In this document: piece by piece, positions 2,289 through 61,985 of the stretch
How positions within the stretch are numbered: the stretch's first letter is position 1
Layout: every line of letters begins with the position of its first letter
Assembly (NCBI GenBank): GCA_947184155.2
Contig: CAMXCT020002729.1
Location: 24,680-88,679, forward strand
Source of the DNA: Cladocopium goreaui
Lineage: Eukaryota; Sar; Dinophyceae; Suessiales; Symbiodiniaceae
Reading direction: 5' to 3'
Length of the DNA stretch: 64,000 bases
Program-made: the position numbers and the translations under genes
Notes under the pieces: generated by a model
The model's input: only the letters and a program-made list of their open reading frames with translations
Database searches by the model: none
What the model was told of the DNA's origin: nothing

Positions 2289-2397
2289 GTTGGGAGTTGG
2301 GGGCGCAGTCCAAAAGTGGCCCCATGGGTCGCCCAAGATTCGTTCAGAATCGCCACGTTGGACTCAAGGTGGTGCCCCCGAACAGTTATACCCTCTG
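2289..2397 (+). CDS. Probable internal exon ending in a family A element
   Basis: Starts after a CCACAG acceptor. The best frame reads WELGAQSKSGPM, then GRPRFVQNRHVGLKVVPPN. It stays open into the left inverted repeat of the element that begins at 2,389, where CTCTG|GT is a natural donor. A second frame is also open. Function not recognised; the KVVPP string recurs in the exon ending at 4,755, which may be chance. Confidence 0.45.
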
Positions 2398-2489
2398 GTT
2401 ATGACTAACATAGCCATGGTATAGATGGCCCATAGAAATAGATGGTTTACCTATTAATAGCATGGTGATTTTCCATGGCTATGTTAAAC
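2389..2489 (+). mobile_element. Family A TIR element, right end degraded
   Basis: Begins with the family A end TACCCTCTGG and the usual interior (AACATAGCCATGG ... CCATGGCTATGTTAAA), but the closing CCAGAGGGTA is missing. Nearly identical over its first 90 bases to the copies at 6,069 and 51,989. Non-autonomous, far too short to encode anything. Confidence 0.7.
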
Positions 2490-3632
2490 AGCCATATGAC
2501 CATTTGTCAAAAATAGTTGTTTAGAAGTTTAGTATTGGTTGTTGATAATTCATCTGGGTCTACTGTTTTTTCCTCTTCGTTATGAGGCGGCACGCAACTA
2601 AATTCAGCAATTCTGCAAAGCAGCGCTAGCAAACCCGCTAGGTTTGCGCTAGGTTTGATTGACAGCCATGGCCTCCATGTCGTGAATGTCTTGCCAGCTT
2701 TTCTTACAAGTCACTTCAGTTTCCACATATTCCCAAATTTTCGATTGTTTTACATATTTTACGCGCTAGATCCCCGCTAGCAGCGAGCTAGCGAAAATTG
2801 CAAATACATGCCCCGGTCCACCCACAGCCCATTCAGAGGCACAGCCATGTTCACGCTTTGGTAGCTTACAGTAAGGAAACAGCGTTGATCAGGAGGCATG
2901 TCAAGAAGCATATTGCATTCAGAGAGGCACACACACACAGAGACACACAGTTCAGGAGATAGCACCAGCGACAGCGAACGAAAACCGACGTGCGTTAGCC
3001 AATTTCTGTGGTTTTAGAAAGATTTCCAAAGGTAACGAAGAATTTCCACGTTTTCACGTCATCAAGGTAGGTCATGTTTTTTAAAGGCAAACATGAGGCG
3101 GCACGCATGGAATTGCGATTTATCAACAAAACCGGGAACAGACATTTTGACAAACCGTCATATGGTAAATCTCAAAGGAAAGCGGATGAAAATAGGGAGG
3201 GTGCCAGCAACCATGGATTTATGAAGAGACAAAACACTGGAAAACTCTGGAAAATGGCGGAAAAAAGTAGTGGTTGGCCCCCATGTTTGTATCCACTACA
3301 TATACAGCATAACTATCCATGAAACATCCCAATATATCCCAATACCAGTATGTTGGATGGTTAAATTGCCATTGTTGATGGTTAAATAATCAGTTTTTGA
3401 TGCTGGAATCGCCATGATGGTCAAATCATAATGTCATATCAGATCACCATGGTTTTTGCAGTTATTTTAACTGCGCCATTGGGGTTTGTCTGGTTATTTA
3501 CTAGAGGCTACTTATCACTTTCCCTATTACGGCATAAAATTGGTCCTAAATCCCGCCATTTTTTTGAGACCCATTTGATGTTCCCTCGCCCTTGGCAATG
3601 GGGAATTTCCGACGCGCTAAGGCTTTCCTAAG
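2490..3632. other. No supported gene
   Basis: Contains short GCGCTAGC-type palindromic words near 2,620-2,800 and CA-rich sequence near 2,925-2,945. Short open frames were not convincing because no paired splice borders could be found. Confidence 0.4.
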
Positions 3633-3897
3633 GCCATGGGAGTTCGGAATGGTTGGAAGAAGAAATTGCAGCAATAAGGAAACTGGTTGGTGGTTTGGAA
3701 CATTTGTTATTTTTCCATTCAGTTGGGAATCATCATCCCAACTGACTTTCACTCCATCATTTTTCAAGATGGCTAAAACCACCAACCAGAAGGGAATGTG
3801 GTTTTTAATTGGTGGGAAAATCTACGAAGACCATGGGTTTCACACCATCATCCCGATTCGGGAACGGAATTTTCCAGATTTTCCCTCCATTTTGTGA
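3633..3897 (+). CDS. Two exon pieces joined across a family B element
   Basis: Exon pieces 3,633-3,685 and 3,790-3,897. The first ends SSEWLEEEIAAIRKL. The second, in the same frame once the GT-AG interval 3,686-3,789 is removed, begins KGMWFLIGGKIYEDHGF and ends at TGA 3,895-3,897. The removed interval is the family B element minus its leading CTG. Another frame reads through the element, so the pairing is an inference. Function unknown; acidic helix followed by a mixed hydrophobic stretch. Confidence 0.5.
3683..3789 (+). mobile_element. Family B TIR element acting as an intron
   Basis: Ends are CTGGTTGGTGG and CCACCAACCAG, perfect inverted copies. The interior carries TTGGGAATCATCATCCCAA, itself a hairpin. 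The element supplies GT after its first CTG and AG as its last two bases. It matches copies at 7,099, 10,171, 47,096, 50,662 and 54,243. Confidence 0.8.
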
Positions 3898-4539: not shown

Positions 4540-4645
4540 TACCCTCTGGTAAACTAACATAACTATGGAAAATCACCATTTTCAATGGGCAAATCCACTA
4601 TAAATGGCCATTTCTAATAGCTATGTTAAATTACCAGGCCGGGTA
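4540..4645 (+). mobile_element. Family A TIR element
   Basis: Opens with TACCCTCTGGTAAAC and closes with TTACCAGGCCGGGTA, a diverged right end. The interior shows the family palindromes around AAATCACCAT and ATGGCCATTT. Its AG (4,636-4,637) is directly followed by an open coding segment. Confidence 0.75.
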
Positions 4646-5169: not shown

Positions 5170-5780
5170 GTTGACATTTGTCATGGTCCAAACCTAAGGG
5201 TTGGCTCTGGGATGCCATTGAATTGATTCTTAATCAAAGTTTCTATGATTTTCTTATATTTCACGCGTTTGGAAAAAAAGTGCAAGTTGAATTATGTTTG
5301 ATGTACTCAGACAGATTGCTGAAGGGCCAAAACATATTTCAGCAGCGTTTTTTTGGAAACATGGTTTATATATGTTTATATAATCTTTCTGAATTGAGAT
5401 TCATGTTCGAAAAAGGATGGAGAACAGACTCAGATCTTGTTTTTTGTAGGTATATAATATATATACAGATACGTATGATTATATATAATATTATATATGT
5501 AAATATATGTTTCTATAGGATTCGACAGGTATTTGCTAATCAACATTGTATTTTTCTATTCTTTGCTGGTTATTAGATTGTCTTCCTGGATTTGTGCTTA
5601 GTCAGTCAGGTTGTCTGTTGATATTTTTGTAGTCCACACCCTGAAAAACTCGTCCGTTCATCGGCAAATTCTCACGTTTCTCCGGAAACCAAGGTTTCGG
5701 TGAACAATAATTCCAGCCAAAAAGGGATGCTACTGTATGGATGTATTGGATGTTCAAGAATTGTATTCTTGAAGCAATTA

Positions 5781-6012
5781 GCCTTTGGTAAATTAACATT
5801 TGGACCCTGAAAATAACCAATGTTGAGTGGAAACTAAGCTTCCAACCTCCATCTGCCAGGGTCTATGTTAATTTACTGGAGGGTATGTAGTGTTTCAAAA
5901 ATACATAATTACTCATATTACTCTTCAGTAAATTAAACCATAAACACTCAAAATAGATAATGTTGAGTGGAAACGAATCTCCTAACCCCTAACTCATGGC
6001 AGGGTCTATGTA
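5781..6012 (+). repeat. Two copies of TIR family K
   Basis: Copy one (5,781-5,885) has inverted ends GTAAATTAACAT and ATGTTAATTTAC. Copy two (about 5,926-6,012) shares the middle AATGTTGAGTGGAAAC and the GGCAGGGTCTATGT end. A right half occurs again near 10,862-10,903. Same size class as the other elements. Confidence 0.55.
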
Positions 6013-6068: not shown

Positions 6069-6185
6069 TACCCTCTGGTTATGACTAACATAGCCATGGT
6101 ATAGATGGCCCATAGAAATAGATGGTTTACCTATTAATAGCCTGGTGATTTTCCATGGCGAACTGTTAGTCATAACCAGATGGTA
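6069..6185 (+). mobile_element. Family A TIR element (GGTTATGAC subfamily)
   Basis: Ends TACCCTCTGGTTATGACTAAC and GTTAGTCATAACCAGATGGTA form a 19-21 bp inverted repeat with one mismatch in the tip. Almost the same sequence as the copy at 51,989-52,113, which points to recent spread. Confidence 0.8.
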
Positions 6186-7098: not shown

Positions 7099-7210
7099 CT
7101 GATTGGTGGTTTGGAGCATTAATTTTATTTTCCATTTTATATATGGGATGTCATCCCAACCCCATTGACGAACTCATATTGTTCAAGATGGTTTTTCAAC
7201 CACCAAGCAG
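7099..7210 (+). mobile_element. Family B element with altered left tip
   Basis: The left end reads CTGATTGGTGG in place of CTGGTTGGTGG, so the GT of the family is GA here. The right end is CCACCAAGCAG. If it is spliced, the donor would be GA, a type reported in dinoflagellates, or another site is used. Confidence 0.65.
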
Positions 7211-7659: not shown

Positions 7660-7778
7660 TAGCCTCTGGTAAACATAGAAAAAGCTATGGAAAATCACCA
7701 TCTTTGAGTTCTGTAAATCAACTATTTCTATGGGCAATTTTCAAGTTCGCAAACTGTAACAGTCGTTACTAGAGGCTA
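7660..7778 (+). mobile_element. Family A TIR element, diverged tips
   Basis: Tips are TAGCCTCTGG and ACTAGAGGCTA. The interior matches other family A members (AAAGCTATGGAAAATCACCAT). The changed tips are complementary to each other, as if the hairpin ends had been corrected together. Confidence 0.65.
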
Positions 7779-10170
7779 TTGTTCAATATCAGATATCATT
7801 TTCCTCATGATTGATTGTCTTACTGGTGCTTAGTAGGGAATTTTCGGGAATGATCCACAATAACTATTAGTATCTATTAGTAATTAATCCCAGCAACCCC
7901 CAGCAACCCAACCCCCAGCAACCCATCCAGCAACCCTACGTAAAACGCACATGGAGCACGACATGTCCACCTTTGAAATGATCATCCCGTCGCGATGGAC
8001 AAGTCTTGCAGGGCCTGGAAGGACTGGAGCAATTTCTAGGTCGAGACGGATCTTCGCACAGCGGTCCTACAGTTATGGCCATTAGTTATAACTGGTGAAT
8101 TCTTTAAATGGGGAGAATCTCCCTTTAAACAAAAAAACTGTGGAAACATAAGAAATGTGGAGTTAATTGGACATTGATGCAGTTATGGCCATTTATTGGG
8201 TATATAAATGGTGATTTCTATTGGATGATACATTCTACAAATGGGGTTCATGTGGCTGAAAGAATGCCATAGCACCTATACCCCAGACACTGGGAATGGT
8301 GGTTTGGGGGGATGGTGCTAGTGGATTATCACCATATATCCAGGTGGAAAAAACACCTGGTTGGTGGTTTCAACAAACCCTAAACCACCATTGTTTTAAC
8401 ATGTTTTAAGCACATCATAAGTACTTAGTCACTGGTATGACTCGGGCCATAACTGTAGGACCTGCCACCATTTCACCGACTCCTTGCCCTCCATGCCTTG
8501 ACTCGAGGGAGCTGCGGAGCTACGGTTTGCGCGCTTTCAGCAACGGCAAAAGCTAGGCAGCTGTACATCTATGTCATTATATATATATATATATAAAAGT
8601 TGCATATCGTATGAGATGTATATCATATATATAATGATATACATATAAATACATAATATATATATTATATTATATTATATTATATTATATTATTGTATAT
8701 TATATATTATTTATATTATACATATAGATATTATATAGGAAATATACATATTATACACGATGTATACCCAACTTAAAATGGAATAGCTCCACTTCGTAGG
8801 CATCTCTTCTCCAGGCTTATGAACCAGTCAGACTCAGTGGTATGATCTGGGCGGATTTTTTTCCCAAAAAACATGCGAAAGTCATAGGAACAGATGGGAA
8901 AACCATAGGAAAATATGGGAAAACATAGGGAAATGATGGGATCATCATAGGGTGAAGAAATTCCCTAGTAACATGATGGGAACACATGTGAAATTCCGCA
9001 CCAAAAAGAGGTTTCGTTCGCTGGGAAATCATGGATGACACCGGAGGGAGTCAACTCTGAGAACCCATAAATACGTGAGAGATCGAGATATTTCACCACC
9101 AGTTGAAAGACACAAGCTATGTGACCCACTTGGATCGGAAAACCTGCTGAATCATAGTGGTGAATCATAGTGGTTCCAAACCACAACAGACCATGGGGTA
9201 TGGTTTACCAGCAACATTGGGCGATTATGTGCGATTGCATTGGCTAATTTAGGAGACTAAATGATGAAGGGTAACCAACTGTAACCACCATGATATGATA
9301 TGAAGATGCAAAGTTGTAGACTTGAACAAAGGAACATGATATTTCAATATGATTCACCAACAGAAAACATGGAGATGAAGATGACAAAGGAACATTGAAG
9401 AACAAACATGTGGATTTACTCAACGGGAAACGGATCGTGTAAACCAAAATGGCGAACGATGTGGAACCAAAAACATGTTGACAAGTGTCGCGGTGTCGCA
9501 GTGTTTGGGATTACAACACACTTGTAATTACTAATCCCTTTCCCCTGACATCAAATACTCTCCAATCAATAACATAGTTTAGTATTTGACCTATTCATAC
9601 CTATTCTGTATTTGGGCTCATTGAAAGGGGTGTTCAACATTCAATAGAGGGAACGGGATTGCCAAATTGTTAACCATAATTTCCAGACTCTGTCCTGCAG
9701 GGACACGTCCCAATGTGACGTGCCCAATATACTACTATCCGAGCATTCGCTGATCCTTGCAATTAAGATGACTATAGATTCACTACAGTATATTTGAGGT
9801 TGGTTGGTCACCGACCTGTTTTTGTTGTCTAAGCCCTTCAATAACGCAAAGACATTAGGAAATACCCTGCGGGAATCACATTGGCAATGGAACATTCCGA
9901 ATTTTTGGATAATGTGCCAATTAAAACCTCAATTTACAGGGGATCAAACCTAGCTAGCCATGTTTGATGAAGGGATATGAAGGGTAAGTAGCGACCCCAA
10001 GCCAATGAAACCACCAGGCTGATACACAGTAGTTGATTTCTGAAGTTGCCGTGCCTGGATGATGCCTGGGGTTATACAAGGTGGGCTCACGTTTTACGAC
10101 GGCGAAATCGTTTTACAACTAGAAAACTATTGGGTGTATGGTAGACATATCCTGAGTTAATGGAGTTAAT
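7779..10170. other. Gene-poor stretch
   Basis: No exon could be supported. It holds a partial family B left end near 8,357, a long AT microsatellite (8,578-8,755), and short inverted words such as ATTCACCACTATGATTCA near 9,145-9,180. Open frames on both strands are AT-rich. Confidence 0.4.
8578..8755. repeat. AT microsatellite
   Basis: TA, TATAT and ATTAT units over about 180 bases, nearly free of G and C. Confidence 0.9.
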
Positions 10171-10267
10171 CTGGTTGGTGGTTTCAAACATTTTTATTTT
10201 TCACAATATATGGGATAATCCTTCCCATTGACTAATATTTTTCAACATGGTTAAAACCACCAACCAG
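10171..10267 (+). mobile_element. Family B TIR element with TAAT duplication
   Basis: Perfect ends CTGGTTGGTGGTTT and AAACCACCAACCAG. It is flanked on both sides by TAAT (10,167-10,170 and 10,268-10,271), a clean 4-bp target-site duplication. No coding sequence touches it, so this copy may sit in non-coding DNA. Confidence 0.85.
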
Positions 10268-10728: not shown

Positions 10729-10959
10729 GTTTATAACTACAATAACTATAGGCTATTGTTTTTTCTTTTGCTATATGGTGATGTTTATCAATATACACTC
10801 TTGAATATCAATAAGCACTGTGATATTTTGGTTTGAAAAAGTATATATAAGAAAATCGAGGAAACCCTACGGCAGGGTCTATGTTAAAGTACTGGAAGGT
10901 ATCATTGCCTAAACATTGAATGGGATAATGGTGATTTTCCTTGGAGGTCAGTTGGCTGG

Positions 10960-11611: not shown

Positions 11612-12167
11612 CACTTGCTAGTGTGTGCCAGTGCCAGCGTGTGCCAATCACAAACCAATCATGAAGATGCCTAAGTGATCATGGATGTCTAAGTTATCAC
11701 CACCGGAGAACAATGATTTTTCGCGAAAAACTATGTGTCTTTGAGGATGAAACGCCAGAGAAAATGGCACAAGATGATGTGTCACATTTTATGTATATAT
11801 GTCAGAATATCTATAATTATCTATATATCTATATATGTCAGATAAAATGTCAGAATGTCCGAATATGTGTCAGAATGTCAGAATAGTTGTGATTTTTTGG
11901 TGGTTAAATCTCCATAGTTTGGTAACGATGGGTAACTGCTTTCTGCAGATTAAGTTACCAAAGGGTAAACCAATTGTGCTTGGGTTAGATCCTCATTGCG
12001 TGATGGTTAAAGCGAAGCAATGACGGTTGATTTCCTGCCTCAATAAGATCCGCGGAAGCTATTGATGGCAAGTCTTTTGAAGTGAGCTGATCCCACTAAA
12101 AGGGCTCATAGACATACTTATGATCCGCGGATCCTAAAATGTCAATGGGAATTTCAGGATCCGAAAA

Positions 12168-12264
12168 TGGAGGTACGTTAGTACCATTTTTCAGGCAATA
12201 TTTTCTGGGGATATTCCCTGAAATTTAGGCCTAAAAAAGGCCTTATATATGATGGGTATCTCCA
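12168..12264 (+). mobile_element. Family C TIR element
   Basis: Ends TGGAGGTAC and GTATCTCCA. The interior shares ATATTCCCTGAAATTTAG and GGCCTTATATATG with the copy at 61,113-61,215. Downstream, a TTTAG acceptor at 12,270 opens an exon. Confidence 0.75.
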
Positions 12265-12270
12265 GTTTAG

Positions 12271-12409
12271 GTTCCTGAAATGGCCATTGAAAATGTTGGT
12301 GAGCCAAAAACAAACCAAAAACTTCCCAACCGGCTGGCACTTAGATGTACTTACTATCTACTTCTTTGTGGATGACACCATGACATTTTTGGAGGGGCTG
12401 AAAATCCAA
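12271..12409 (+). CDS. Probable internal exon with hydrophobic patch
   Basis: Runs from GTTTAG to a consensus CAA|GTGAGT donor. The frame contains FPTGWHLDVLTIYFFVDD and TMTFLEGLKIQ. A second frame is open at the 5' end. The DVLTIYFFVDD stretch could be a strand or short membrane segment. Function not recognised. Confidence 0.5.
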
Positions 12410-12723
12410 GTGAGTCAAAAAAATGGTTGAGCCCGAAAATCCCATGGTAACTGTTATCATGATGTTCACATATGTTTCCCCATTAGATGAAAAACATGGG
12501 GTCCATGGATGGGTCTTGTTGGGAAGATTTATGAACCGGTTGAAAAGCCCCATATGAAACATTGGTGAAAATCGGATTGGTTTCCGGTGTCGATTTTCCC
12601 AACGAAACCAATCCCAGATTAGCTCACCATGGTGCTGGCATATTTACCTACAAAGCTGGGTCATTTTTGGGGTAAATGTAGGTAAATATTACATACATGG
12701 AGCATCTGGGACTCCATTGATTC

Positions 12724-12833
12724 TGGGTAAATTATAACAACCTCACTGCGACCTCACTGGAAATCATCGTTAGTAAGGAGAATCATCCCAAAATGGCCTT
12801 AATTCAGGTTAGTGAATTATTATAATTTACCCA
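12724..12833 (+). mobile_element. Family E TIR element
   Basis: Ends TGGGTAAATTATAA and TTATAATTTACCCA are a perfect 14-bp inverted repeat. The interior has CCTCACTG and ATTCAGGTTAGTGA. The second copy is at 42,640-42,735. Confidence 0.75.
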
Positions 12834-12884
12834 GATTGATTGGGATATCCCCAAGTACCATGGCATGTTCCTTTCACGTGCCAG

Positions 12885-13261: not shown

Positions 13262-13373
13262 TACCCTCTGGTAAACTTACAAAAAGCTATTGAAAATGGC
13301 CATAGAAATAGTTGATTTACCCGTTAATAGCATGGGGATTTTCCATAGTTGTTTGTATGTTTACCAGAGGGTA
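13262..13373 (+). mobile_element. Family A TIR element inside a longer palindrome
   Basis: Perfect tips TACCCTCTGGTAAAC and GTTTACCAGAGGGTA. The flanks add AAATCCATA on the left and TATGGATTT on the right, extending the inverted repeat beyond the family ends. Confidence 0.8.
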
Positions 13374-13728: not shown

Positions 13729-13847
13729 TACCCGGCCTGGGAAACGTTTACAAAAAGCGAACTGGAAAATTACCATCTTTAAGTTCGGTAAATCAACTAT
13801 TTCTATGGGCCATGACTTCAATAGCTATGTTAAATTACCAGAGGGTA
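13729..13847 (+). mobile_element. Family A TIR element
   Basis: Left tip TACCCGGCCTGG diverged, right tip TTACCAGAGGGTA intact. The interior has GTAAATCAACTATTTCTATGG, also seen at 7,660. The CCCGGCCTGG tip recurs at 51,289 and, inverted, at 4,636, which marks a subfamily. Confidence 0.7.
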
Positions 13848-38734: not shown

Positions 38735-38834
38735 TACTCTCTGGTAAAGGTTGACATAGCTATGGAAGCCATGGTCCATAGACCTACGAAAAATGGTGAT
38801 TTTCTATAGCTATGTAACAAATCACCAGAGGGTA
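38735..38834 (+). mobile_element. Family A TIR element
   Basis: TACTCTCTGGTAAAG and TCACCAGAGGGTA tips, interior CATAGCTATGGAAGCCATGG. Short for the family (100 bp). Confidence 0.7.
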
Positions 38835-40668: not shown

Positions 40669-41130
40669 GTCGAACAACTGGAGATCCGCGCTTCACCCTG
40701 CAAGGAGTGTCACTGCGCTCGGGCGGGGATGGCGACCAGCGCCTCGCGGTGCAGGCTGAAGGACTACAGCTTGAAGCGAGAGACCTCAAGGACGCCAGCT
40801 CGTTGATTTGGACCGTCATGTTTGAGGCATAGCCCATAATCTGATACTTAAATGGTACCCCCCCAATTAAACAGCCGTAAACGGGGTTTATTAATCCAGG
40901 GTTGACATTAGCCACATTCCCTATCACTACCTTGTTTTCCCCCGAAACGTCCCCGAAAAAGATCGCTATGGCCATGCTGTGCTGAAGGGGCTGGGCCATT
41001 TCCTGTTGACTTTGCCAATCGAGCTGTTTATTGTAGAGCTCCGCACACCGGCGATGCCACAAGATGTTGTTGTTGTTGTTGTCGTCGTCGTCGTCGTCGT
41101 CGTCATCGTTGTCGAAGAGTGTAGCATCAA
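40669..41130 (+). CDS. Two exons around a family D element, poly-Val tract
   Basis: 40,669-40,826 after CGTCTCAG reads RTTGDPRFTLQGVSLRSGGD, QRLAVQAEGLQLEARDLKD, SSLIWTVMFE. 40,912-41,130 reads HIPYHYLVFPRNVPEKDRYG, AVLKGLGHFLLTLPIELFIV, then Val x12 from a GTT/GTC repeat and VVEEC, ending before GTACGT. To join these frames the intron must begin at AT or be shifted, as GAG|GC gives another frame. Family unknown. Confidence 0.55.
40828..40910 (+). mobile_element. Family D element, left part altered
   Basis: The right end GGGTTTATTAATCCAGGGTTGACATT is shared with 51,535-51,668; the left end differs (CATAGCCCATAATCTGATAC), also seen as TACTTAAATGGTACC in the middle of the other copy. Lies exactly between two exons. 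Confidence 0.6.
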
Positions 41131-41877: not shown

Positions 41878-41991
41878 TACCCTCTGGTAAACGTTTACAA
41901 AAAACTATGGAAAGATCCACCATTTTCTAGCTGGGTAAATCCACTATAAATCACCATTTTCAATAGCAAACTGTTAGTTTACCAGAGGGTA
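41878..41991 (+). mobile_element. Family A TIR element between exons
   Basis: TACCCTCTGGTAAACG and TTTACCAGAGGGTA tips. Exons lie at 41,730-41,817 and 42,006-42,149. Confidence 0.75.
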
Positions 41992-42323: not shown

Positions 42324-42544
42324 CGACTTTTACCCCCAGCAGGCGGGATCACGCTCAAATTTCTTCGAAAATGGGTGGGAATCCATCCCTTCGCCAGGCC
42401 AGCATCGAATTGCGTCTGGGCGGCCGAGAGTTGAAATCGAAGCTGCTTCAGCTGGAAGGCCCAGAACATGTCAACTGGGATCCACGGGTCAGATCTCGAA
42501 AAAATGGGGGCGTTTCAAAATGGGGGATCCTCAATAGCTGGTAG
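42324..42544 (+). CDS. Exon or gene start (MGGN... from 42,371)
   Basis: After AAATACAG; an in-frame ATG at 42,371 gives MGGNPSLRQASIELRLGGRE, LKSKLLQLEGPEHVNWDPRV, TAG 42,542-42,544. MGGN at a true N-terminus would fit N-myristoylation, but an internal exon is as likely. Two other + frames are open over part of it. Confidence 0.45.
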
Positions 42545-42639
42545 CTTATTTCATGGAAAATCCTCTTAAAATGGATGATTTAGGGGTACCACCATGTCCG
42601 GAAACATCCATACATACGTATGTATGTTACATATATATC

Positions 42640-42735
42640 TGAGTAAATTTTAACGACCTCACTGTTCCCTCGAACCCTGGAATCATGGTCAATAAGGGAA
42701 ATCATTCAGGTTAGTGAAATATCATAATTTACCCG
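42640..42735 (+). mobile_element. Family E TIR element, copy 2
   Basis: TGAGTAAATTTTAA and ATAATTTACCCG ends, interior CCTCACTG, CATTCAGGTTAGTGAAAT as at 12,724. Confidence 0.7.
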
Positions 42736-42856
42736 TATATATATATATATCCCATGCAAAACTGGGAATCAACAGCCCAATGCTCTGTTCATCTTCAATT
42801 TGATTGATCATATTTGAAGGTTTCCTACAATGGGGGTGGATGGTTTATTTCATGGA

Positions 42857-45286: not shown

Positions 45287-45656
45287 GGTTTACAACATTT
45301 TACAAATGGGTGTTTCCATATATGGGGTTACCCCAAAAATGATAGTTTTTTTTTTAATGGAAAATCCCCATCTTAAATGGATGATTTGGGGGTACCACCA
45401 TTTATGGAAACCCCATTTATGGTATTTCCATGTCTTTACGGAGTCGAAATCCTGAGTATCTTACCCTTTAGTCTCCATGACGAGCGTTTGCTTTGGGTTT
45501 GTGCCACACCAAGACTTTCTATAAAATATGTGTCCAAGAATGTAAAGTATAAATGTTTGCACAGATATGCAATTATCCAAACATCCATGTTTATAGTGCT
45601 TATCTTCCGCCATTTTTTTTGCAATGTCCCCTGTTGCAACTTAAGCACGTGTGAAG

Positions 45657-47095: not shown

Positions 47096-47214
47096 CTGGT
47101 TGGTGGTTTGGAACATGAATTTTATGACTTTCCAGAAACAGTTGGGAATGTCATCATCCCAACTGACTTTCACTCCATCATTTTTCAGAGGGGTAGGGCT
47201 CAACCACCAACCAG
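47096..47214 (+). mobile_element. Family B TIR element
   Basis: CTGGTTGGTGGTTT and AACCACCAACCAG ends; longer right arm (CAGAGGGGTAGGGCT) as at 50,662. An exon follows at 47,289. Confidence 0.8.
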
Positions 47215-47448: not shown

Positions 47449-47558
47449 TTATGGGTAAAATAGCATAACTATGGAAAGATCCACCATTTTTTATGGCTCA
47501 TAAATCAACTATTTCGACTGGGCCATTTTCAATAGCTATGTTAGTTTACCAGAGGGTA
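47449..47558 (+). mobile_element. Family A TIR element, left tip lost
   Basis: Right tip TTTACCAGAGGGTA intact; left side reads TATGGGTAAAATAGC. Interior CATAACTATGGAAAGATCCACCAT. Confidence 0.65.
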
Positions 47559-49030: not shown

Positions 49031-49034
49031 CTTC

Positions 49035-50346: not shown

Positions 50347-50545
50347 TACGCTCCGGTAAACTAACAGTTTGCTATTGAAAAATGGCTCATTTATAGTTGA
50401 TTGACCCATTAAAAATGGTGATTTTCCATAGTTTTTTGTAAACGTTTACCAGAGGGTAACATTTTTTTTCATAATCACCATTTTTAATGGGAAAACTCAC
50501 TATAAATGGTGATTTTCAATAGCTATGTTAAATTACCAGAGGGTA
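50347..50545 (+). mobile_element. Family A element plus an adjoining half copy
   Basis: A complete copy 50,347-50,458 (right tip TTTACCAGAGGGTA) is followed by the right two thirds of another (50,470-50,545, tip TTACCAGAGGGTA). Either one inserted into the other, or a second copy lost its left end. Confidence 0.75.
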
Positions 50546-50664
50546 GTGAGTTCGATGAGTTTCCCAGCTTGAAAATTCCTCGTCGAGTTAGTTCGGACAC
50601 TAAAAATCCTGCCTACGCTGGATTACCGAAGGGTAGCTGCAGAATTTCTTCAAGACAAGAACTG
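50540..50664 (+). CDS. Exon framed by two elements (A then B)
   Basis: Begins at the AG of the family A tip and ends at CTG|GT of family B. The 41-codon frame reads GSEFDEFPSLKIPRRVSSDT, KNPAYAGLPKGSCRISSRQE L. Both splice sites would be supplied by TIRs. Function not recognised. Confidence 0.5.
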
Positions 50665-50798
50665 GTTGGTGGTGACTGGAACCATGGAATTTTGAATGAC
50701 TTTCCAGAAACAGTTGGGAATTTCATCATCCCAACTGACTTTCACTCACTAATTCCATCATTTTTCAGAGGGGTAGGGCGAGCTCAGCCACCAACCAG
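50662..50798 (+). mobile_element. Family B TIR element with AGAA duplication
   Basis: CTGGTTGGTGG and CCACCAACCAG ends, flanked by AGAA on both sides (50,658-50,661; 50,799-50,802). The interior is longer by a duplicated CACTCACTAATTCC region. Confidence 0.85.
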
Positions 50799-51142: not shown

Positions 51143-51288
51143 GTGAAAATTTTGGGGCCGGGGCAAACATCACCAGCAAATTTCATGGCGAATCATCGCC
51201 GGCACCTTTTTTTTTCCCCACATGGAAGACACACTTTTGAAGATGGGCCCCATGGGCCATTGACAAAGCCACCTGTTTTGCAAAAACA

Positions 51289-51417: not shown

Positions 51418-51534
51418 AGTTAAATTCAGGATCAAGTCGAAGTCGTCCATTGAGACATCATGCTGCAATTGGATGCAATTGGCTGGACATGCTGGACTTG
51501 TTGTTGGGCTTTTTTGGATGTGTATATACTCTGT

Positions 51535-51668
51535 AATGTCAACCCTGGATTAATAAACCCCAAACGCCTGTTTAATTGGGAAGGTACCATTTAAGTATTG
51601 GATTATGACTATTGGAGGGGTACCCCCCTAATTAATAAACCATGGTTTATTAATCCGGGGTTGACATT
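51535..51668 (+). mobile_element. Family D TIR element
   Basis: AATGTCAACCCTGGATTAATAAACC and GGTTTATTAATCCGGGGTTGACATT form a 25-bp inverted repeat with one mismatch. The middle has TAATTGGGAAGGTACC and GGGGTACCCCCCTAATTA, a second hairpin. Confidence 0.78.
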
Positions 51669-51833
51669 ATACCTGATTGGTGCCGTTTTTGTGACTGACA
51701 GACAGTTTGAACATTGTTTGAACATTTTGAAGGAAGAACACCTATAAGAGAGCGGGGCCGATTGATTCCAAAGTCTTGATTTGGCCATGAAAAAAAAAGT
51801 GCCACTTTCGAAGTTATCCGAAAATCTCTTAAG

Positions 51834-52308
51834 TGGCGTCCGTTATGCTGTTTGATCCACGATATTCATCTCTAGATTCGAAGGAGATTACTTGGGTCTG
51901 GTCAAAGTTAAATTCTGCCATCCAAAGAGCTGTGTTTTTCCAGCAAGTTCGAAATCTAGAAGCCCACAGAATTTCCATGTCAGTTTTCTACCCTCTGGTT
52001 ATGACTAACATAGCCATGGTATAGATGGTCCATAGAAATAGATGGTTTACCTATTGATAGCATGGTGATTTTCAATGGCGAACTGTGAATCTGTTAGTCA
52101 TAACCAGATGGTAATGGCTTTGTTGTTGGCTCATGACATCAGCACATCCGTGGATTTTTGGAACGCGGACAGGTTCCTGCGGACAGCGTTCCTTCATTGC
52201 GAAAGCCTCGAGGATTTAAGGAGAGAGGCATGGGATGCAACCAAGGATGCCCTCAACAGCCGCCTGGCGGGGAAAATACTGGGTGCAGTTGAGGTTAATG
52301 GGGCTCTG
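51834..52308 (+). CDS. Two exons joined across a family A element
   Basis: 51,834-51,997 reads VMLFDPRYSSLDSKEITWVW, SKLNSAIQRAVFFQQVRNLE, HRISMSVFYPL. 52,108-52,308 (67 codons) reads MVMALLLAHDISTSVDFWNA, DRFLRTAFLHCESLEDLRRE, WDATKDALNSRLAGKILGAV, then GTGGAT. Frame holds with GT at 51,998 and AG at 52,107, both in the TIRs. Exact excision would need another frame of exon 1, which is also open. Helical; family unknown. Confidence 0.55.
51989..52113 (+). mobile_element. Family A TIR element used as an intron
   Basis: TACCCTCTGGTTATGACTAAC and GTTAGTCATAACCAGATGGTA tips. Near-identical to 6,069-6,185. Contains a small insertion TGAATCTG relative to it. Confidence 0.82.
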
Positions 52309-53779: not shown

Positions 53780-55011
53780 GCCGATTTGGATGCGTATTGT
53801 GCTGTGGTTAGCTTTGTGTTTCTTGCCTTTCCTTCTACCTTCGGCTTCGTACGCATTGTGGACCTTCGCAGTGGTGGTGGCCATGTTTTTTCTCATCGCC
53901 CTCGTGACTTGGCAGGATGCCAAAATCCAATTGGTACTGGCATTGTGCAGTTTCAGTGTGTGAAAGGTCTGAGAAGCTCCAAAAAGGATCAAAAAGGTAG
54001 AATACGGTAGAATCCTGGAAGGTTGTGATTTTCTTCTGCTAGAACACTTCTTTTCGCAAGCCTCAGGTTTGTCGGAGAGTCCATTTGAAAAGAAGTTTTT
54101 TTTTTCACCTGCCAGGTGAAAAAGGGTTCGGGGAGTGGTGGTGTACCTGCACACTTGAAAACAATGCGAGTTTCAGGTGCCTGGAAACTGGTCAAGTTTT
54201 CTGCTGGGGTTTGGCTGTTGGCTCATTTTGGCTCAACATTTTCTGGTTGGTGGTTTGGAACATTTTTTATTTTTCCATATATTGGGAATAATCATCCCAA
54301 CTGACGAACTCATATTTTTCAGAGGGGTAGGTATACCACCAACCAGTTTTGGGCGCGGGTTTTGGAAGATATCGAGGGAGTGCCTCAGATTTTGATGAAC
54401 ATTTGATCCATTTCTACAGTGTTGACCATTTTGGCGAAGTTGCGCAGAACTTCTTTTCCAAGACAACGGCAGGCACTGGACTGATAGATTATTTCTAATG
54501 GAGATTTAATAGGGTTTAATCAGGTTTAATTGGACCTACTGGATAGATCTAGTGGGAGCCAGTGCCCTTGCAATATCTTGCAATCATTACCATTCTTGTT
54601 CACGAGTCTTCTCGGTTGGTTGCAGCCTGCACAGCACGGGATACAGCAATGTGATGGGCGAAAACTATTGGTGGTCAAAATCCACCACGAATGTCCCTGT
54701 ACAATGTGAGGCCCCCAAGATAGCTAAGTTGGTGAACATAACTCCAATGTCACTATGGTTTATGGTACTTATAACTATAGTTACTGGGGCGAGTCTAAAC
54801 CAACTTAGCTATCTTGGGGGCATCATGTCCCTGTAGGCATGAATGTTTTGGTGCTCCTTTCCATCTTTGCGGATGCAGCGCTATTGTCCTCATTGACGTA
54901 CCTGGAACCAGTCCTGCAGATGGAGCTATGCTTCTACATAGCGACAGGCATCACTATTGCTTGGTTGGTGGTCATGTCGATGCCTCATGCGATGTCTTCA
55001 GATCAAAACTG
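53780..55011 (+). CDS. Multi-pass membrane protein gene, partial
   Basis: Exons: 53,780-53,955 (PIWMRIVLWLALCFLPFLLP, SYALWTFAVVVAMFFLIALV, TWQDAKIQLVLALCSF), 54,116-about 54,242, about 54,347-54,482, 54,626-54,705 and 54,837-about 55,011 (MNVLVLLSIFADAALLSSLT, LEPVLQMELCFYIATGITIA, WLVVMSMPHAM). Middle exons give GEWWCTCTLENNASFRCLET, GAGFGRYRGSASDFDEHLIH, FYSVDHFGEVAQNFFSKTTA, LHSTGYSNVMGENYWWSKST. The hydrophobic stretches in the first and last exons suggest about four membrane helices around a Cys/Trp-rich loop. Intron 54,706-54,836 (GTGAGG...TAG) contains family G; the intron near 54,243 is family B. Both ends continue beyond what I could trace. No family recognised. Confidence 0.6.
54243..54346 (+). 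mobile_element. Family B TIR element with TTTT duplication
   Basis: CTGGTTGGTGGTTTGGAACA left and CCACCAACCAG right, TTTT on both sides (54,239-54,242; 54,347-54,350). It interrupts coding sequence on both sides. Confidence 0.87.
54711..54821 (+). mobile_element. Family G TIR element, 23-bp perfect ends
   Basis: GCCCCCAAGATAGCTAAGTT GGT at the left is perfectly inverted at 54,799-54,821. ATGTCCCTGTA occurs just outside on both sides (54,691-54,701; 54,825-54,835). A related, weaker hairpin lies at about 59,712-59,795. Confidence 0.85.
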
Positions 55012-55221
55012 TTTAAAGCCTCTGGTTTGCAGATCTGGATCCAACAAATCTCGGGAAGTATCGGATGGGAAGTTTCGGGTGGGATTCTGGATGGGAAGTT
55101 AAAAAATGGGCCATCGGATGGGAGCTTTTTTAAGTCATTCCTGTGTTGTGACCTGTGATGGAAGAATAGCTCTGCAAAGTAGAGTAATAGCTCTGGTAGA
55201 GTAGCCATCCATTTTTTACAG

Positions 55222-55309
55222 TGACGGAATCACCACAGATGAAGTACGTATGCCAAAGATATCACAACCATGTCTGGACGAAACTGCAAAATCTGGAATG
55301 TTTCAGTAA
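55222..55309 (+). CDS. Probable exon, two open frames
   Basis: After TTTTTTACAG. One frame: DGITTDEVRMPKISQPCLDE, TAKSGMFQ, TAA. Another: TESPQMKYVCQRYHNHVWTK. Confidence 0.4.
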
Positions 55310-55583
55310 ACCTGTCTTCCGGGAAGATTTTGCTTCTCGAGTCGGTGTTTTCTGTGCATTATCACAACCTTAGCTATCCAATGGCTGCTTTGATAGCAAT
55401 AGTTGGAAGGGACCATTGAAGTCGATGTGGAACTTGCGATTTTTTGCTCCGAGGTCAGGGAAATTTCATGTGGCACTGCAACTCTTGCGGCGATGTTTGT
55501 TACCTGCAGCCGTGGTCTTATTGATGCAGATGGATGGTGAATTTTCTCGTGTGGCCTGCCTTCTGTTGCTGGCTGCAAATTAG

Positions 55584-55656
55584 TTGTCTCGCACATGGTG
55601 GCCGGAAGAATAAAACCCCTGCGGGACGATCCCGAATTGGCTTGGAAAAACCATAC
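55584..55656 (+). CDS. Internal exon with consensus donor
   Basis: After GCAAATTAG: VSHMVAGRIKPLRDDPELAW, KNHT, then AC|GTAAGA. Good borders. Confidence 0.5.
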
Positions 55657-55745
55657 GTAAGAAAAGCCTGGCCTGTTGCTGGCAGAGGTCTAGCGGTTCA
55701 TCATCGTTCATCCATGTTTATCCGGTGGAAACATGAAACACAACC

Positions 55746-55916
55746 ATGCCAAGCTTTTTGTCTATCTTTGTCCAACACCTTGACTCTCTGGGACTGGACT
55801 TGGGACACTGGCACCCGAAAAACTTCGCTGGAGGTTGGCGTTTCTGTCCTTCACATCTGTGCTGGGGTTGGACCTGCTTTCGCAAGACCATCTACCTGAT
55901 GCGCGCCTCTGCATGA
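55746..55916 (+). CDS. Coding segment, 56 codons
   Basis: ATG 55,746: MPSFLSIFVQHLDSLGLDLG, HWHPKNFAGGWRFCPSHLCW, GWTCFRKTIYLMRASA, TGA. A second frame (FIRWKHETQPCQAFCLSL) is open too. Trp/Cys-rich. Confidence 0.4.
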   Translation: MPSFLSIFVQHLDSLGLDLGHWHPKNFAGGWRFCPSHLCWGWTCFRKTIYLMRASA

Positions 55917-56113
55917 CAGGATGCAGAAGTGGTTTTTTTCGAATCAAACTCAACAGACACCAGAAGTGCTCGGACGGTGATTTGGTGAATATCTCACAAC
56001 CTACAGGGTGAATGTCATAGGGGTCCTGTGAAAAATGTGAAAAGCATCTGCCTTTCAGGACATTTTTAGCGGCCTCATCCGGCCTCGCTTGCCTCATGCG
56101 GCCTCGCTTCTAG

Positions 56114-57421
56114 GCTCAAGCGGAGCGGACACTCCTTGGACGCTCCTGCGACGGCCGACCGTTATGCTGTGTGGATGGCCCACCTCTGCCGCGACGAAAG
56201 GTGGACGGCCGCCGTCGTCTACGGTGCAATCTGCTCAGGTCATCCAGGCACGTCGCCCTTAAATTCGGGGGGTGTAGTAGCGCGTGTTGGAGAACAGTGT
56301 TTGCTTATGATTCTTTATCCATGGCATGAGCTAGTTGGAGACTTAGATGACTTAGGACTTAGCAGGTCAAGAAGGCTGTGACACTGTGACGTTTGTCCTG
56401 CGACTAACAGTTTTTTCTAACAGCAATCCTCAGCAGATCAGCGTGGAATACCAATGCACTCATTGACGACTCGCAGCAGCCTTTACCGCATGACCCAGTG
56501 GCGGTGGAATTCCCAGGTGTGTCGAGAAGCCACATTTTGTTAGTCCCAGGTGTGTCGGCAGGTATTTGCAGATGAATGGCATAGGCAGTTTTGAAAAAAA
56601 AAATTACAGTATAACTGATTCTGAATGGGCTTTCCATGGGTTTCCTGCCCTTCTGGATTCGTTTGGTTCGCGATGACTTTGTTTTGGTCTACTGTTTGTG
56701 AGTGTTCTTGAAATATCTTCAAATCAGGTTCTCGATGTCTTTAGTATTCTTGGTCCTTCAGTTTTTTGCTTCATTCTCTGAGGGGTTCTTTGCATTGGGT
56801 GTGTTCATCAAGCAATTGGCAGTTTTGGCTGGAAATGTTGGGCTGGGAATCACATAGAACAACCTGAAGTGCAGCATTGAACAACGTACGTGTCGTACAG
56901 TGTCTTTCCCCCAGTCACCAGCAAGCGCAAGAGCCTTGTCTTGTCCGACAATGAGAAAGCAGCACAGCAGAATTTTCATGCCGAACTGGTAGAAGGCATT
57001 CGTGGAACTAGTTTGCAAGATCCAAACAAGATCTGGGTTGCAAGGTTGAAAAAAGCCTGGCTGCTTTTCCTAACCATATGTTCTATGTTGGGCCTTTGCA
57101 GGGCGCATGTTGGGAGTATGTTGGGCCCATGTTGAGGCATGTTGGACCATCTTGGGCCAATGTTGGGCTTATCTTGGGCCTATGTTGGGCCTATCTTGGG
57201 CCTATGTTGGGCCATGTTGAGCCCAGGCTTGGCAACTTAGCCGATTTTACGACATTTTGAAACCGTGGAAAACACAGGATTCTAGAACAAAAATAGCCCC
57301 CCCGCCACTCAAGCTTAATAGCTACACCCCATTTGGAAACCCAATGCGTTCACTTGAATTGTTGCGTTTAGTTGGGGAAAGATTTCTGGAAGTCGGTGCG
57401 TGCCACGCGTGCTGCGTCCAG
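56114..57421 (+). CDS. Four-exon chain, phases agree throughout
   Basis: Exons 56,114-56,238, 56,424-56,516, 56,915-57,044 and 57,241-57,421; phases 1, 1, 2; GT donors and CTAG/ACAG/CCAG/TTAG acceptors. The protein (about 176 residues) reads LKRSGHSLDAPATADRYAVW, MAHLCRDERWTAAVVYGAIC, ILSRSAWNTNALIDDSQQPL, TSKRKSLVLSDNEKAAQQNF, HAELVEGIRGTSLQDPNKIW, RFYDILKPWKTQDSRTKIAP, SYTPFGNPMRSLELLRLVGE, RFLEVGACHACCVQ. Soluble and mixed charge, with a proline-rich linker. No TIR element is present; these introns look ordinary. Family not recognised. Exons at 58,344 and 58,649 probably belong to the same gene. Confidence 0.65.
57070..57235. repeat. TTGGGCCTATG mini-repeat in an intron
   Basis: About eleven degenerate TGTTGGGCC(T/A)A units inside the intron 57,045-57,240. 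Confidence 0.85.
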
Positions 57422-57676
57422 GTGGTGTTTGGGAAGACATGTTTTGGAACATTGATATTTTTACCTGCGTTCTTGTAGGTTCGGAATTTCCCTAATGTGT
57501 CAGTTCCATTGGGGATTGGATTGTGTTGGGTTTTCCCCTTTTGAAATTTGGAGATGTGGTTGTGTTGAAATGAGGGGGATTGGTGGCGAGGGGTTCCTTT
57601 TTTCCATTTTTTTCCATTTTAGGGTATCGCCGGGGTATCGCCAGAGTATCGCCGGAAATGCGTTCGTGAGTTGTCT

Positions 57677-57765
57677 TGTCTTGTCTTGTCGCTGCTGCTG
57701 CTACTGAAGCTACTGCTGCTGGTTCTGCTGGTCCTGCTGCTGCTGTTGCTGCTGCTTACCTTCCC
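57677..57765. repeat. CTG/CTA triplet tract
   Basis: Imperfect GCTGCTGCTACTG units following a TTGTC triple. A frame rich in Ala crosses it, and a - strand frame rich in Ser; coding use is not shown. Confidence 0.75.
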
Positions 57766-58343
57766 ACTACCGAGCTGCGCGCGCCACAAGGGGTTGCACC
57801 TGTATCTTTGGTTGGTCGCTTCACTTTGACTGTAGTTACTGTAGTTGTGGTGAAACTTGCGTCCCATTGCGTTTTTCAACAGAATCATTCAAAATAGCCT
57901 AAAACAATGACTGCATAGATGCAGCGTCCACAATATGATTCCTAATTTTAGAGCCATAAAAACACCGAACATTAAACCAAATAGATGATTGCTGGCGCAC
58001 AGCGTCCCATGCTGATTTGCATAATTTTGCACTGACTTCTGTGACTTCCTGAATGCGGAGCGTCCCATTGTGATTTGTTTTCGAACAGACGGTGCACTGA
58101 CTTTCCCGACTGGGTGTATTGCAATCGTTTAATGCGTGCACAGAAAAAAGCACCTCAGCACCTTTGGCGCGGGCGGGTTGTGGCTATCAGTTTTTGATAG
58201 TTTTTGCATTGAAACTGTTTTTAGGGGTCGTGTTCGTGCTTTCTTTTGCTCCGCTGGCGGAGCTTGCGTAGAGAAAATCTAGTCCGTGCGGATTGACTAG
58301 CACATTCCACTTTGACAGATTTGGCTTCAGCCATTTTCCGCAG

Positions 58344-58440
58344 CTTAATATAGAGATTGGTAGAGTGGAAGAGCCAGTGCTTCATTTCAGAACTGACCCC
58401 AGCTCCAAGCTTCATCAAATGCAAAAGCACAGCTTTTCAG
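58344..58440 (+). CDS. Internal exon, 32 codons
   Basis: After ATTTTCCGCAG: LNIEIGRVEEPVLHFRTDPS, SKLHQMQKHSFS, then G|GTCAAG. The frame also remains open further (RPSVRIRRIQKRLPSQSH). Phase 0 start fits the exon ending at 57,421. Confidence 0.5.
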
Positions 58441-58648
58441 GTCAAGGCCGTCCAAGCGTGCGCATCCGGCGCATCCAGAAGAGATTGCCATCCCAAAGTC
58501 ATTTGTTCAAAGCGGAATTCTGTGATAATTGTGTGATATTGTACAAAGTTTGGATTTGTTTAGTGTTTTTGCTGCAACATGTCTCTAAATTTTAGACTGT
58601 GGTGTCTCGAAATGTGTGTTTCGAGCCTTTTTTTTTGCCGTTTTCGAG

Positions 58649-58843
58649 GTATCTCCAATGGGCCCAGATTCCAGAGAAAGACCAGAAGCTCCCAATGGCC
58701 TGACTCATTACCATTGGACAGAACGCTTTGAGCTATTCAGATCCATGGTAGAGGCGCATCACTTGGGCTTCAAGGAATTTGTTGAGCGGCGCCGGCGCAA
58801 GGGCCAGTCTGGCTATGGCAGCTCTTACAGTGATCGAAGATGA
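58649..58843 (+). CDS. Terminal exon, 64 codons
   Basis: After TTTTCGAG: VSPMGPDSRERPEAPNGLTH, YHWTERFELFRSMVEAHHLG, FKEFVERRRRKGQSGYGSSY, SDRR, TGA 58,841-58,843. A basic RRRR motif and a Gly/Ser/Tyr tail close the protein. No further coding for 500 bases, so a gene end is likely. Confidence 0.6.
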   Translation, partial: VSPMGPDSRERPEAPNGLTHYHWTERFELFRSMVEAHHLGFKEFVERRRRKGQSGYGSSYSDRR

Positions 58844-59404
58844 GTAGAATCCGTCAGGAGAGTCCAGGAAAAACCAGCTGCGACTTTGGTGATGTGCATC
58901 CACAGATGATCGATTTCAGACACCAATCCTGGTGTTTCTTACCTTGCATGGCTTGGTATCAGTCATCATTGGTGATGACATGCTTGTGATGGGAAGGGGA
59001 TGATTTCCCTATTTTTTTCCTGTCATGTCTTGTAATGTTTGTGAGCTTCTCAGTGCATTTTTTTGGCTTTGTCGGTGACGACGTCTGACATTTTCCCAGC
59101 GAATCATTTCCCGAGAAATCCCGTGGACGTGTTTTGCTTTTTCGCAGAGCGTTTGCCACAGATAGCCACCTTGATCGATCCATCCCCGTGTGGAAAAAGC
59201 CTTTGCAGTTTGAGCGCAGCTGCCGACCCTCAAAATGATGTCTTGATTTGAGTGCTGGTTTTGGCGACCTTGCATCGAGGCAAAGATTCTCCACATCTAG
59301 ACCCGTTTGGGAGCTGAATTTTTGCAGGCACGATGAGTTGAAGTGGCATAATCCCATTCCCTTGAAAATTACATGGCCCGGCGACGCTCCCCCCGGGGAG
59401 CTTT

Positions 59405-59581
59405 ATGGCCACTAAAATTGGGCGCCATCAGCGACGGATTGAGGCAGCTCAAGGCAACATGAACCCCACCAACCTGTCTGTCATAAGGGGATTTCGAAAG
59501 AGGACGAAAAAGAAGTTTCTGGGGGTGTACAAAAAAAGCATCTTTCATAGCACCCCCCGAAAAGAGAAAAACACGTCATAA
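59405..59581 (+). CDS. Small basic ORF or first exon, 58 codons
   Basis: ATG 59,405: MATKIGRHQRRIEAAQGNMN, PTNLSVIRGFRKRTKKKFLG, VYKKSIFHSTPRKEKNTS, TAA. Very basic. Two other + frames cover the first part (one ends GDAPPGELYGH). If spliced within, it could start the gene at 59,826. Confidence 0.4.
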   Translation: MATKIGRHQRRIEAAQGNMNPTNLSVIRGFRKRTKKKFLGVYKKSIFHSTPRKEKNTS

Positions 59582-59608
59582 GTATTTCGTGGGAGTTGAC
59601 CGGCTGAA

Positions 59609-59726
59609 CTATCTTTTTGGGGGTTAAATTCACCCAGGATTTCGTTTTTTTTTCAGCGCGAGCAAGCAATCACAGTGGTGACGACACAAAAAAGGCTGCG
59701 AATTCAGTTAACTCCCCAAAAGATAG
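59609..59726 (+). mobile_element. Family H TIR element
   Basis: CTATCTTTTTGGGGGTTAA and TTAACTCCCCAAAAGATAG are inverted copies with small changes. The interior has an A/C-rich stretch after TTTTTTTTTCAG. It overlaps a G-like hairpin that starts at 59,712. Confidence 0.65.
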
Positions 59727-59825
59727 AAGTTGGATGAAGTTGGTAAAGTCCCACTAAATAGCTATGATTTACTTTTCTATCTTGTTTGGGGGCACCACAA
59801 GTTGCATAAGTTGATCTGTTCCAAG

Positions 59826-61985
59826 GATTGGGCTGGACCTCGTTCAACCTCCTGCCTTCTTAGCGGGTCTCATTTTCGTGCAGATGGTCTTTACCGCAGC
59901 CCAGAATATGACCAGTATGTGGCCACAATGCGCTGCTGCAGTCTTGATGCCTGCATGGGTGATGGTCTTTCAATGTCTCGGTGCCTTGTCGGCCTTGTCT
60001 CGGTTTGAATTTCATTGTCATTGAATAATTTGTATATAGATAATGATAGATATATTTCCAGAAAATTTAGATATCACATATTGTCATTTGTCATATCTTT
60101 GACGTGACTTGAAGCTATTCGGGCGGCCTTCTGACATCAGCCCCGATTGGGAGCCACGATTTGGCAAGGTGGTATTGGCGGGCCACTTTGGGTGCTGCCA
60201 CTTCAATTGGGGACAAGCCACTGAGCGAGAACGAAAGCGCCGTAAAGTGATGACTGGAAGCCTAGATTCTTTGGAAGGGAACTCAGAAGATATTCCTTTG
60301 ATACATGAGAGATTTGTCAGAAATATTAATATAAGAAATATGCCTGCCTCTATTATGCTCGAATTTTACTTGGTGCTTCCGTATCCTCGTGCTGTGCATT
60401 CCTTTTTGCACATATTGCACATATCATTATGACATATTATGATTGTCATATCATACTCATTAGAGGGATTGGTTGCAAGAGAGGCATTGCGATTGTTGTC
60501 GGAGCAACATGGATGGAGCCAAGTGGTGAAAGTGGTGAAAGTGGTGAGCGGGGAAGATGATTCTTATTGGATTCTTCTGAATATTCTTACCATTCTTCAC
60601 GTGATGCAATGATGCCTTTGGAGCATTCCAGGTTCATAAAGTTTATGATGAACAAGCTGAGCAGGATATTTTGGGATTACCCTCTGGTTATTTAACATAG
60701 CCATGGAAAATAGCCCATAGAAATAGATGATTTTCCCAGCTATAAACCTCCATTTATGGTTGGGATTTTCCATGGCTATGTTAAATAACCAGATGGTAGT
60801 TGCAGTATTCCTTTGGGCGACCCAGGTACAGTGGTCCTTTGGTCGGCCTTGGTTCGAGCCATGCCGGCAATGTCCGCAGTAGGAGGCCTGAGGATTGGTT
60901 GACGGGGAAAAAACATACAGTGAAAAACCAGGGTTTCCTGTAGTTTTTCCCAGAAAAACCAATCCTTTCTGAATTTCTCCATTTATTTTTGTTCGTTTCT
61001 GGCTTTTTTTTGATCACGGACCAACATTTTGAGGATCATTTTGGTACCAAGCAGTTGGGTATTTATGTCAATTTGCTATGGTATCAATGGGAGATCTCCA
61101 GGATCCAACTTATGGAGGTACGTCGGTACCATTTTTTTAGGCCATATTTTGGAGGGATATCCCCTGAAATTTAGCCCTTACAGTATATAGGCCTTATATA
61201 TGGTAGGTACCTCCAATCAATCGCTTCCTGAAATTCCCATTGATGGTGTCGGACTTGTTTGGCCGATGGGATCTGTGGGGTCCCGTGGGGTCGTCGAAGA
61301 AGGCGCTGCAGTGGTGACACTATGCGCAGTCATTGCGATGCTCCTCAGCGAGTGTCTGGCACAAAGAAGACGACGTGAAGCGATGGAAAAGGCTGGCGTT
61401 GCCAAGGCATCGATTGGTGGTCGATTGGTTCACCTTTTCTGACGGTGGAGTGAGGGGTGGAGGGGTCATAGTTGTGGAGCTACTGTGATTTTCTTCACAG
61501 GAAAGAAACCTGTCCGTCTCGCCCGAGAGGTCTTGCGCCAAATCCTAGACAAGCTCACCAAGAAGGGTATGCAGCTGGAAAATCACCACACACCGCAAAT
61601 CTGCGATACGCTGAGTCCGCAGTCAGTGGCGAAGGACTTGGAAAAACAACTTCGAATAACATAGAATGACAGTTTCGCTTGATTTCCCCTGTGTTACCCT
61701 CTGGTAAACGTTTACATAGCTATAGAAAATCACCATTTTGAGCCATTTTCCATAGCTATGTAAACGTTTACCAGAGGGTATTGAACAATTCCTCTATGTT
61801 CCAGTTCGATTCCGAAACAGATTTGGCAGGAACTCCAGGCCTTCGAGGAATCCACACGGATGGAAGGACTTAGCGTTTCCTTTCTGCAGAACCGAAAGGA
61901 ATGGCTGGCCACCTTGCGCAGAGGCCGGAACGACTACGAAGCTCGAAAAAAATCATGGGAAATGTTGGACTCGATCTTAAGATGA
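59826..61985 (+). CDS. Nine-exon multi-pass membrane protein gene
   Basis: Exons 59,826-60,002, 60,115-60,246, 60,480-60,600, 60,632-60,686, 60,793-60,897, 61,034-61,117, 61,207-61,416, 61,501-about 61,621 and 61,805-61,985 (TGA 61,983-61,985). Codon phases agree at the first seven junctions; the last donor is uncertain. About 395 residues, N-terminus not found. Hydrophobic helices: FLAGLIFVQMVFTAAQNM, CAAAVLMPAWVMVFQCLGAL, YWILLNILTILH, TVVLWSALVRAMPAMSAVGG, AAVVTLCAVIAMLLSECLAQ. Between them: YSGGLLTSAPIGSHDLARWY, EALRLLSEQHGWSQVVKVVK, VHKVYDEQAEQDILGLPS. The C-terminal part is a soluble helical tail (REVLRQILDKLTKKGMQLEN, PKQIWQELQAFEESTRMEGL, NRKEWLATLRRGRNDYEARK). Introns 60,687-60,792 and 61,118-61,206 are elements A and C. 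Likely integral membrane protein; family not recognised. Confidence 0.7.
60678..60798 (+). mobile_element. Family A TIR element forming a whole intron
   Basis: TACCCTCTGGTTATTTAACA and TGTTAAATAACCAGATGGTA: 20-bp inverted repeat with one mismatch in the tip. GT at 60,687 and AG at 60,792 are inside the arms. Confidence 0.85.
61113..61215 (+). mobile_element. Family C TIR element forming a whole intron
   Basis: TGGAGGTAC and GTACCTCCA tips. GT at 61,118 and AG at 61,206 lie within the tips; interior as at 12,168. Confidence 0.82.
61695..61780 (+). mobile_element. Family A TIR element, shortest copy
   Basis: 86 bp: TACCCTCTGGTAAACG, CATAGCTAT, AAAATCACCATTTTG and their inverses; almost one perfect hairpin. 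Lies within the intron before the last exon at 61,805. Confidence 0.82.

Follow-up and report, generated by a model that had tools for sequence, protein, structure and literature searches.

MITEs of the Tc1/mariner (Stowaway-like) type have inverted ends with TA on both sides, occur in many copies, and carry no gene. The dinoflagellate literature contains descriptions of introners that have inverted ends and target duplications (PMC9860276, PMC7789003), and the hosts compared are Symbiodinium microadriaticum, Polarella glacialis, and Amoebophrya (PMC9860276, PMC7789003, PMC11453091). For P. glacialis, a review that cites Roy et al. 2023 gives 15 introner families, each of 100 introns or more (PMC11453091). 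Because many introner families per dinoflagellate genome have already been published, a multiplicity of this kind would be of little novelty here.

The DNA analysed in this study is a stretch of 64 kb, referred to as the window, which is contig C2729, positions 24680-88679, of a genome of 1,165,616,438 bases in 6,202 contigs. Arrays of peridinin-chlorophyll protein genes are a marker of peridinin dinoflagellates, and in this genome there were 150 PF02429 matches in tandem arrays compared to none in 14 control genomes. The host is, from these arrays, a dinoflagellate, which agrees with the setting proposed in a preliminary description of the window. The short elements in the window are very probably several unrelated MITE families of the dinoflagellate nuclear genome.

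Masked self-BLAST of the window sorted the short dispersed repeats into families, and 31 elements of 76-160 bp with inverted ends were delimited in seven families, with 16 copies of A, 6 of B, 1 of F, and 2 each of C, G, H, and I. The letters A-I are those of this analysis and have no one-to-one match to the letters used earlier. When the window was scanned for inverted repeats at score 14, 18 places were found compared to 0, 1, 0, 0, and 0 in five shuffles, in which single bases were shuffled within 100-bp blocks, and the short dispersed repeats with inverted ends that had been reported are therefore real. None of them has coding capacity, since at this length they are too short for a transposase. 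The elements are the following:

2389..2490, plus strand, A, degenerate right end
3683..3789, plus strand, B, flanks GAAA/AAGG, duplication gone
4540..4645, plus strand, A, TA at both ends
5779..5885, plus strand, A subfamily, A-type ends with an interior of its own
6069..6185, plus strand, A, delimited copy
7099..7210, plus strand, B, flanks TTTT/TTTT
7660..7778, plus strand, A, delimited copy
10171..10267, plus strand, B, flanks TAAT/TAAT
12142..12290, plus strand, C, flanks AAATG/AAATG
12722..12835, plus strand, G, empty site in the 93%-identical C301 copy, TTGAT/ATTGAT duplication
13262..13373, plus strand, A, within a longer palindrome (13253-13382)
13729..13847, plus strand, A, delimited copy
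38735..38834, plus strand, A, delimited copy
40835..40910, minus strand, H, left end cut, preceding exon-like segment terminates in a stop (WTVMFEA and stop)
41878..41991, plus strand, A, delimited copy
42502..42605, plus strand, I, delimited copy
42638..42737, plus strand, G, diverged
45304..45418, plus strand, I, delimited copy
47096..47214, plus strand, B, flanks ATTA/ACTA
47450..47558, plus strand, A, degenerate left end
50347..50458, plus strand, A, adjoins the next copy
50457..50545, plus strand, A, without left end, adjoins the previous copy
50662..50798, plus strand, B, flanks AGAA/AGAA
51289..51417, plus strand, A, delimited copy
51534..51669, plus strand, H, flanked by TA
51989..52113, plus strand, A, coding-like DNA on the right side only
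54243..54346, plus strand, B, flanks TTTT/TTTT
54702..54824, plus strand, F, altered right end, possible intron 54706-54836, empty site plus one codon
60678..60798, plus strand, A, possible intron 60687-60799, empty site plus two codons
61083..61242, plus strand, C, possible intron 61081-61206
61695..61780, plus strand, A, near-perfect palindrome

The claim of ten or more families was not confirmed, seven being delimited here. The element at 5,779-5,885 ('E') has A-type ends and is counted as A. Among the candidates searched for in 193,254 bases from 62 other loci, D had four partial and no full-length places, J (12,665-12,720) had one full-length place, and L, M, and the 10,794 insert had no match. 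This insert is a 476-bp stretch of the window (10794-11270) that is missing from the copy on contig C301, and it matches no identified element. The A copies at 6,069 and 51,989 had been presented as nearly identical, but their alignment of 125 columns contains 4 substitutions and a gap of 8 bases, which is 90.4% identity when the gap is counted; close pairs do exist, as the copies at 2,389 and 6,069 are 98.9% identical over 91. In the F copy at 54702-54835 the right end departs from the usual F end and is a repeat of the left flank (ATGTCCCTGTA), and it looks as if it had been repaired from that flank.

Of the 31 elements, 12 are found between 1 and 16 kb and the other 19 between 37.8 and 62 kb, which leaves 16-37.8 kb empty. 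That 0 of 31 elements are in the 21.8 kb from 16000 to 37800 has a p of about 2.5e-6 under uniform placement, and this element-free stretch contains tandem arrays and two intronless genes. The large tandem arrays of the window are at 20429-21970 (unit of about 127), 31582-34143 (78/20), and 48898-49965 (49 bases). The two genes, at 23180-23740 and 24668-25267, are adjacent on the plus strand, have similar starts (..EYLGW..), are without a Pfam match, and are perhaps paralogues. Pfam searches with stops as X, which covered the plus strand of 22.7-25.3 kb, five of the six frames of 38-48 kb, and six frames of 52-61.9 kb, had two weak matches, to zf-PARP (E 0.032) and to SUZ-C (E 0.29), and no others; the two fell far short of the cut-off.

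A count of copies in the genome, which had been proposed in the preliminary description, showed that all seven families recur outside the window in the same 1.17-Gb genome. A loose first look gave 338 and 1737 candidates with two A probes, 1790 with F, 2126 with C, 2352 with H, and 952 with B. The best 40 candidates of each probe were scored, with matches listed at E <= 0.001, and among these the best match apart from the window and its allele ranged from 88% (C) to 99% (B) with probes that favour young copies. In the 62 other loci the full-length places were 62 for A, 34 for F, 20 for B, 7 for G, 3 for I, 2 for C, and 1 for H, where 32 of the A places and 29 of the F places are the probe site itself and two of the three I places are probably alleles. 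The element densities in these loci are only indicative, since A and F copies guided their selection and some of them are probably pairs of alleles. Exact element patterns had no matches in viral contigs, and one match among genome contigs, in a Woesearchaeota record, was rejected as chance, the alignment being confined to the 24-base pattern at 83%.

When the flanks were examined, exact 4-bp duplications were found in 14 of 74 pattern-defined B copies (window included) compared to a shuffled mean of 0.8; in the window 4 of the 6 B copies have them. Contig C301 has a 93%-identical version of the region without the G copy at 12,722 and with a single ATTGAT at the site, and exact 5-bp duplications were found in 3 of 10 G copies compared to 0.3 in shuffled sequence. 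The ends of F read TA-CAATGTGAGG...CCTCACATTG-TA and those of A read TACCCTCTGG...CCAGAGGGTA, each in 23 of 30 loci with at most two mismatches per end, where the TA of A and F is part of the searched pattern and is thus consistent with a target duplication without being proved by an empty site. In one F copy both flanks read CA in place of TA, which fits a target duplication. In F, a C precedes TA in 10 of 23 and a G follows TA in 10 of 23, and H is flanked by TA. An 11-bp repeat at the F copy at 54,702 was considered as a target duplication and dropped, as the family has TA ends in 23 of 30 loci. Contig C2504 is an allele of 34.1-64 kb that is 99.8-99.9% identical, and no element differences were found between it and the window in 34,135-42,856, 42,957-49,000, and 50,120-64,000, with 3.3 kb of C2504 across a gap left out. 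The copies in the genome and the empty site of G bear out the earlier view that these are mobile elements with inverted ends, and their spread was probably fairly recent.

A probable explanation of how these elements came to be here is that, as MITEs without a gene of their own, they are moved by cut and paste by transposases presumably encoded elsewhere. From their ends, A, F, and H resemble Tc1/mariner elements that target TA, and together with the 4-bp duplications of B and the duplications of about 5 bp of G this suggests that there are probably three insertion chemistries. The majority of the copies are in intergenic or intronic DNA, and the abundance of the families throughout the genome accounts for so many of them meeting within 64 kb. 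The genome has eight matches to DDE_3 transposase domains, seven of them outside contig C1. The single DDE_3 locus examined (L090) has a 397-codon open frame carrying the domain; within 2.5 kb it has no exact inverted repeat of at least 11 bases around the gene, none of the 31 elements matches it by BLAST, and no autonomous partner was found there. Contig C1, with coordinates to about 7.28 Mb, has dozens of single-frame kinase domains as well as a DDE_3 gene, and it is probably a bacterial genome assembled along with the dinoflagellate.

That the inverted repeats instead arose by chance, or are artefacts of simple sequence in AT-rich DNA, is hardly credible. There are many tandem repeats in the window, and the palindromes at 11190-11275 and 8063-8462 have no copy in the 62 other loci, but A, B, C, F, and H have copies at 88-99% on other contigs (best 40 per probe) with almost none in shuffles, so that this explanation is refuted by the genome searches for these five families and by full-length copies elsewhere for G and I. 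A more serious question is whether the elements are introners, that is, elements that enter exons, carry or recruit splice sites, and turn into introns, as was concluded in the preliminary description from many copies lying directly between open coding segments. Introners of similar anatomy are known in dinoflagellates (PMC9860276, PMC11453091). The coding context of the elements was scored with a codon model from eight kinase exons of the genome and the two window genes, a small set of 2,240 codons, which passed 81% of training bins (real exons), a sensitivity measured on its own training data, and 16% of window bins. There were 59 exon-like segments in the whole window compared to 29 in a reversed-sequence null, so about half may be noise; in 37.8-62 kb there were 24 on the plus strand compared to 5 on the minus strand. 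Coding-like flanks were found on both sides of none of the 31 elements and on one side of seven, whereas random positions were coding-like on both sides in 5.5% and on one side in 29% of cases in the whole window, and in 2.3% and 30%, respectively, within 37.8-62 kb. All seven one-sided copies are within 37.8-62 kb, which is 7 of the 19 there (37%) compared to 30% at random. The elements thus sit between coding segments no more than expected by chance. Elsewhere, A and F copies are mostly in non-coding DNA: bins 15-105 bp from 28 F loci were 4% and 7% coding-like on the two sides, those beside 34 A loci were 9% and 18%, of which the 18% exceeds the 10% background, and off-probe A copies had 5% of 111 bins coding-like compared to 10% of 992 background bins. 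For B copies (window included) it was 5% of 147 bins, and for G (26% of 19), C (6% of 18), and H (17% of 6) the bins are too few to judge. Six-frame ORFs over the joined flanks of 27 sites were no longer than those at random sites (lowest p 0.05, for F), frames of 80-100 codons being frequent at random, and a first, smaller codon model, trained on the two window genes and then self-extended, gave a weak result on the joined flanks of 28 sites (lowest p 0.04).

The ends read CTG/GT...ACCAG/ in A and B and TCTGG/GT...CCCAG/ in G, and these splice-like GT...AG pairs are there because the ends are symmetrical. With removal at the built-in pair, 13 bases would remain for seven of the eight A copies tested and 15 for the other (a ninth copy is without the motif), 7 bases for all six B copies (one of which has AT for GT), and 11 bases for the one G copy tested, so the frame would be shifted in 14 of the 15 copies. 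In favour of introners are these splice-like ends and the copies at 54,702 (F), 60,678 (A), and 61,083 (C), which are in a plus-strand gene region with coding-like DNA to the right and where each empty site has an open frame that is kept by GT-AG removal. Removal of the predicted intron 54706-54836 gives ...STTNVPVQCMNVLVLL..., the empty site and one residue, removal of 60687-60799 gives ...DILGLPSVAVFLW..., the empty site and two codons, and the frame is open after predicted removal of 61081-61206. From the sequence, these three copies may be in-frame interruptions of exons in a plus-strand gene, and if they are spliced they would give a direct view of the conversion of a MITE to an intron. 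However, they were hand-picked, the longest open frame in the 27-site ORF test differed at all three, and the empty site of F has two open frames. We regard it as unlikely that the elements are introners. It is equally doubtful that at least three unrelated families, A, B, and G, have converged on CTGG(G)T...ACC(C)AG ends, splice-like in either orientation, with the minority that lands in genes tolerated through splicing and the frame restored by a G that follows the TA target (+6 in A, +3 in F); if that were true, the families with convergent ends would be splice-tolerated transposons becoming introners.

As MITE families in non-coding DNA that are real but have little support for an intron role, what was found in the window is mostly ordinary, and the result corrects an attractive introner claim. 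In a dinoflagellate, the proximity of short inverted-end repeats to open frames does not in itself make them introners, because such repeats are common in non-coding DNA here. The seven families are provisionally taken as new families of a known kind, as judged on a narrow search of the MITE and Symbiodiniaceae literature. With dinoflagellate introners (PMC9860276, PMC7789003, PMC11453091) they share inverted ends, target duplications, and many families per genome, but in contrast to introners no exon placement was found for them here, and A, B, and G have splice-like ends that would break the frame. The ends of A, F, and H are not tied to a named family of Tc1/mariner (Stowaway-like) MITEs and no autonomous partner was found, but like these MITEs the three families have inverted ends, are flanked by TA, are multicopy, and are gene-free. 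Finally, B, with its 4-bp duplications, and G, with duplications of 5-6 bp and an empty site, are like MITEs with target duplications of 4-5 bp.
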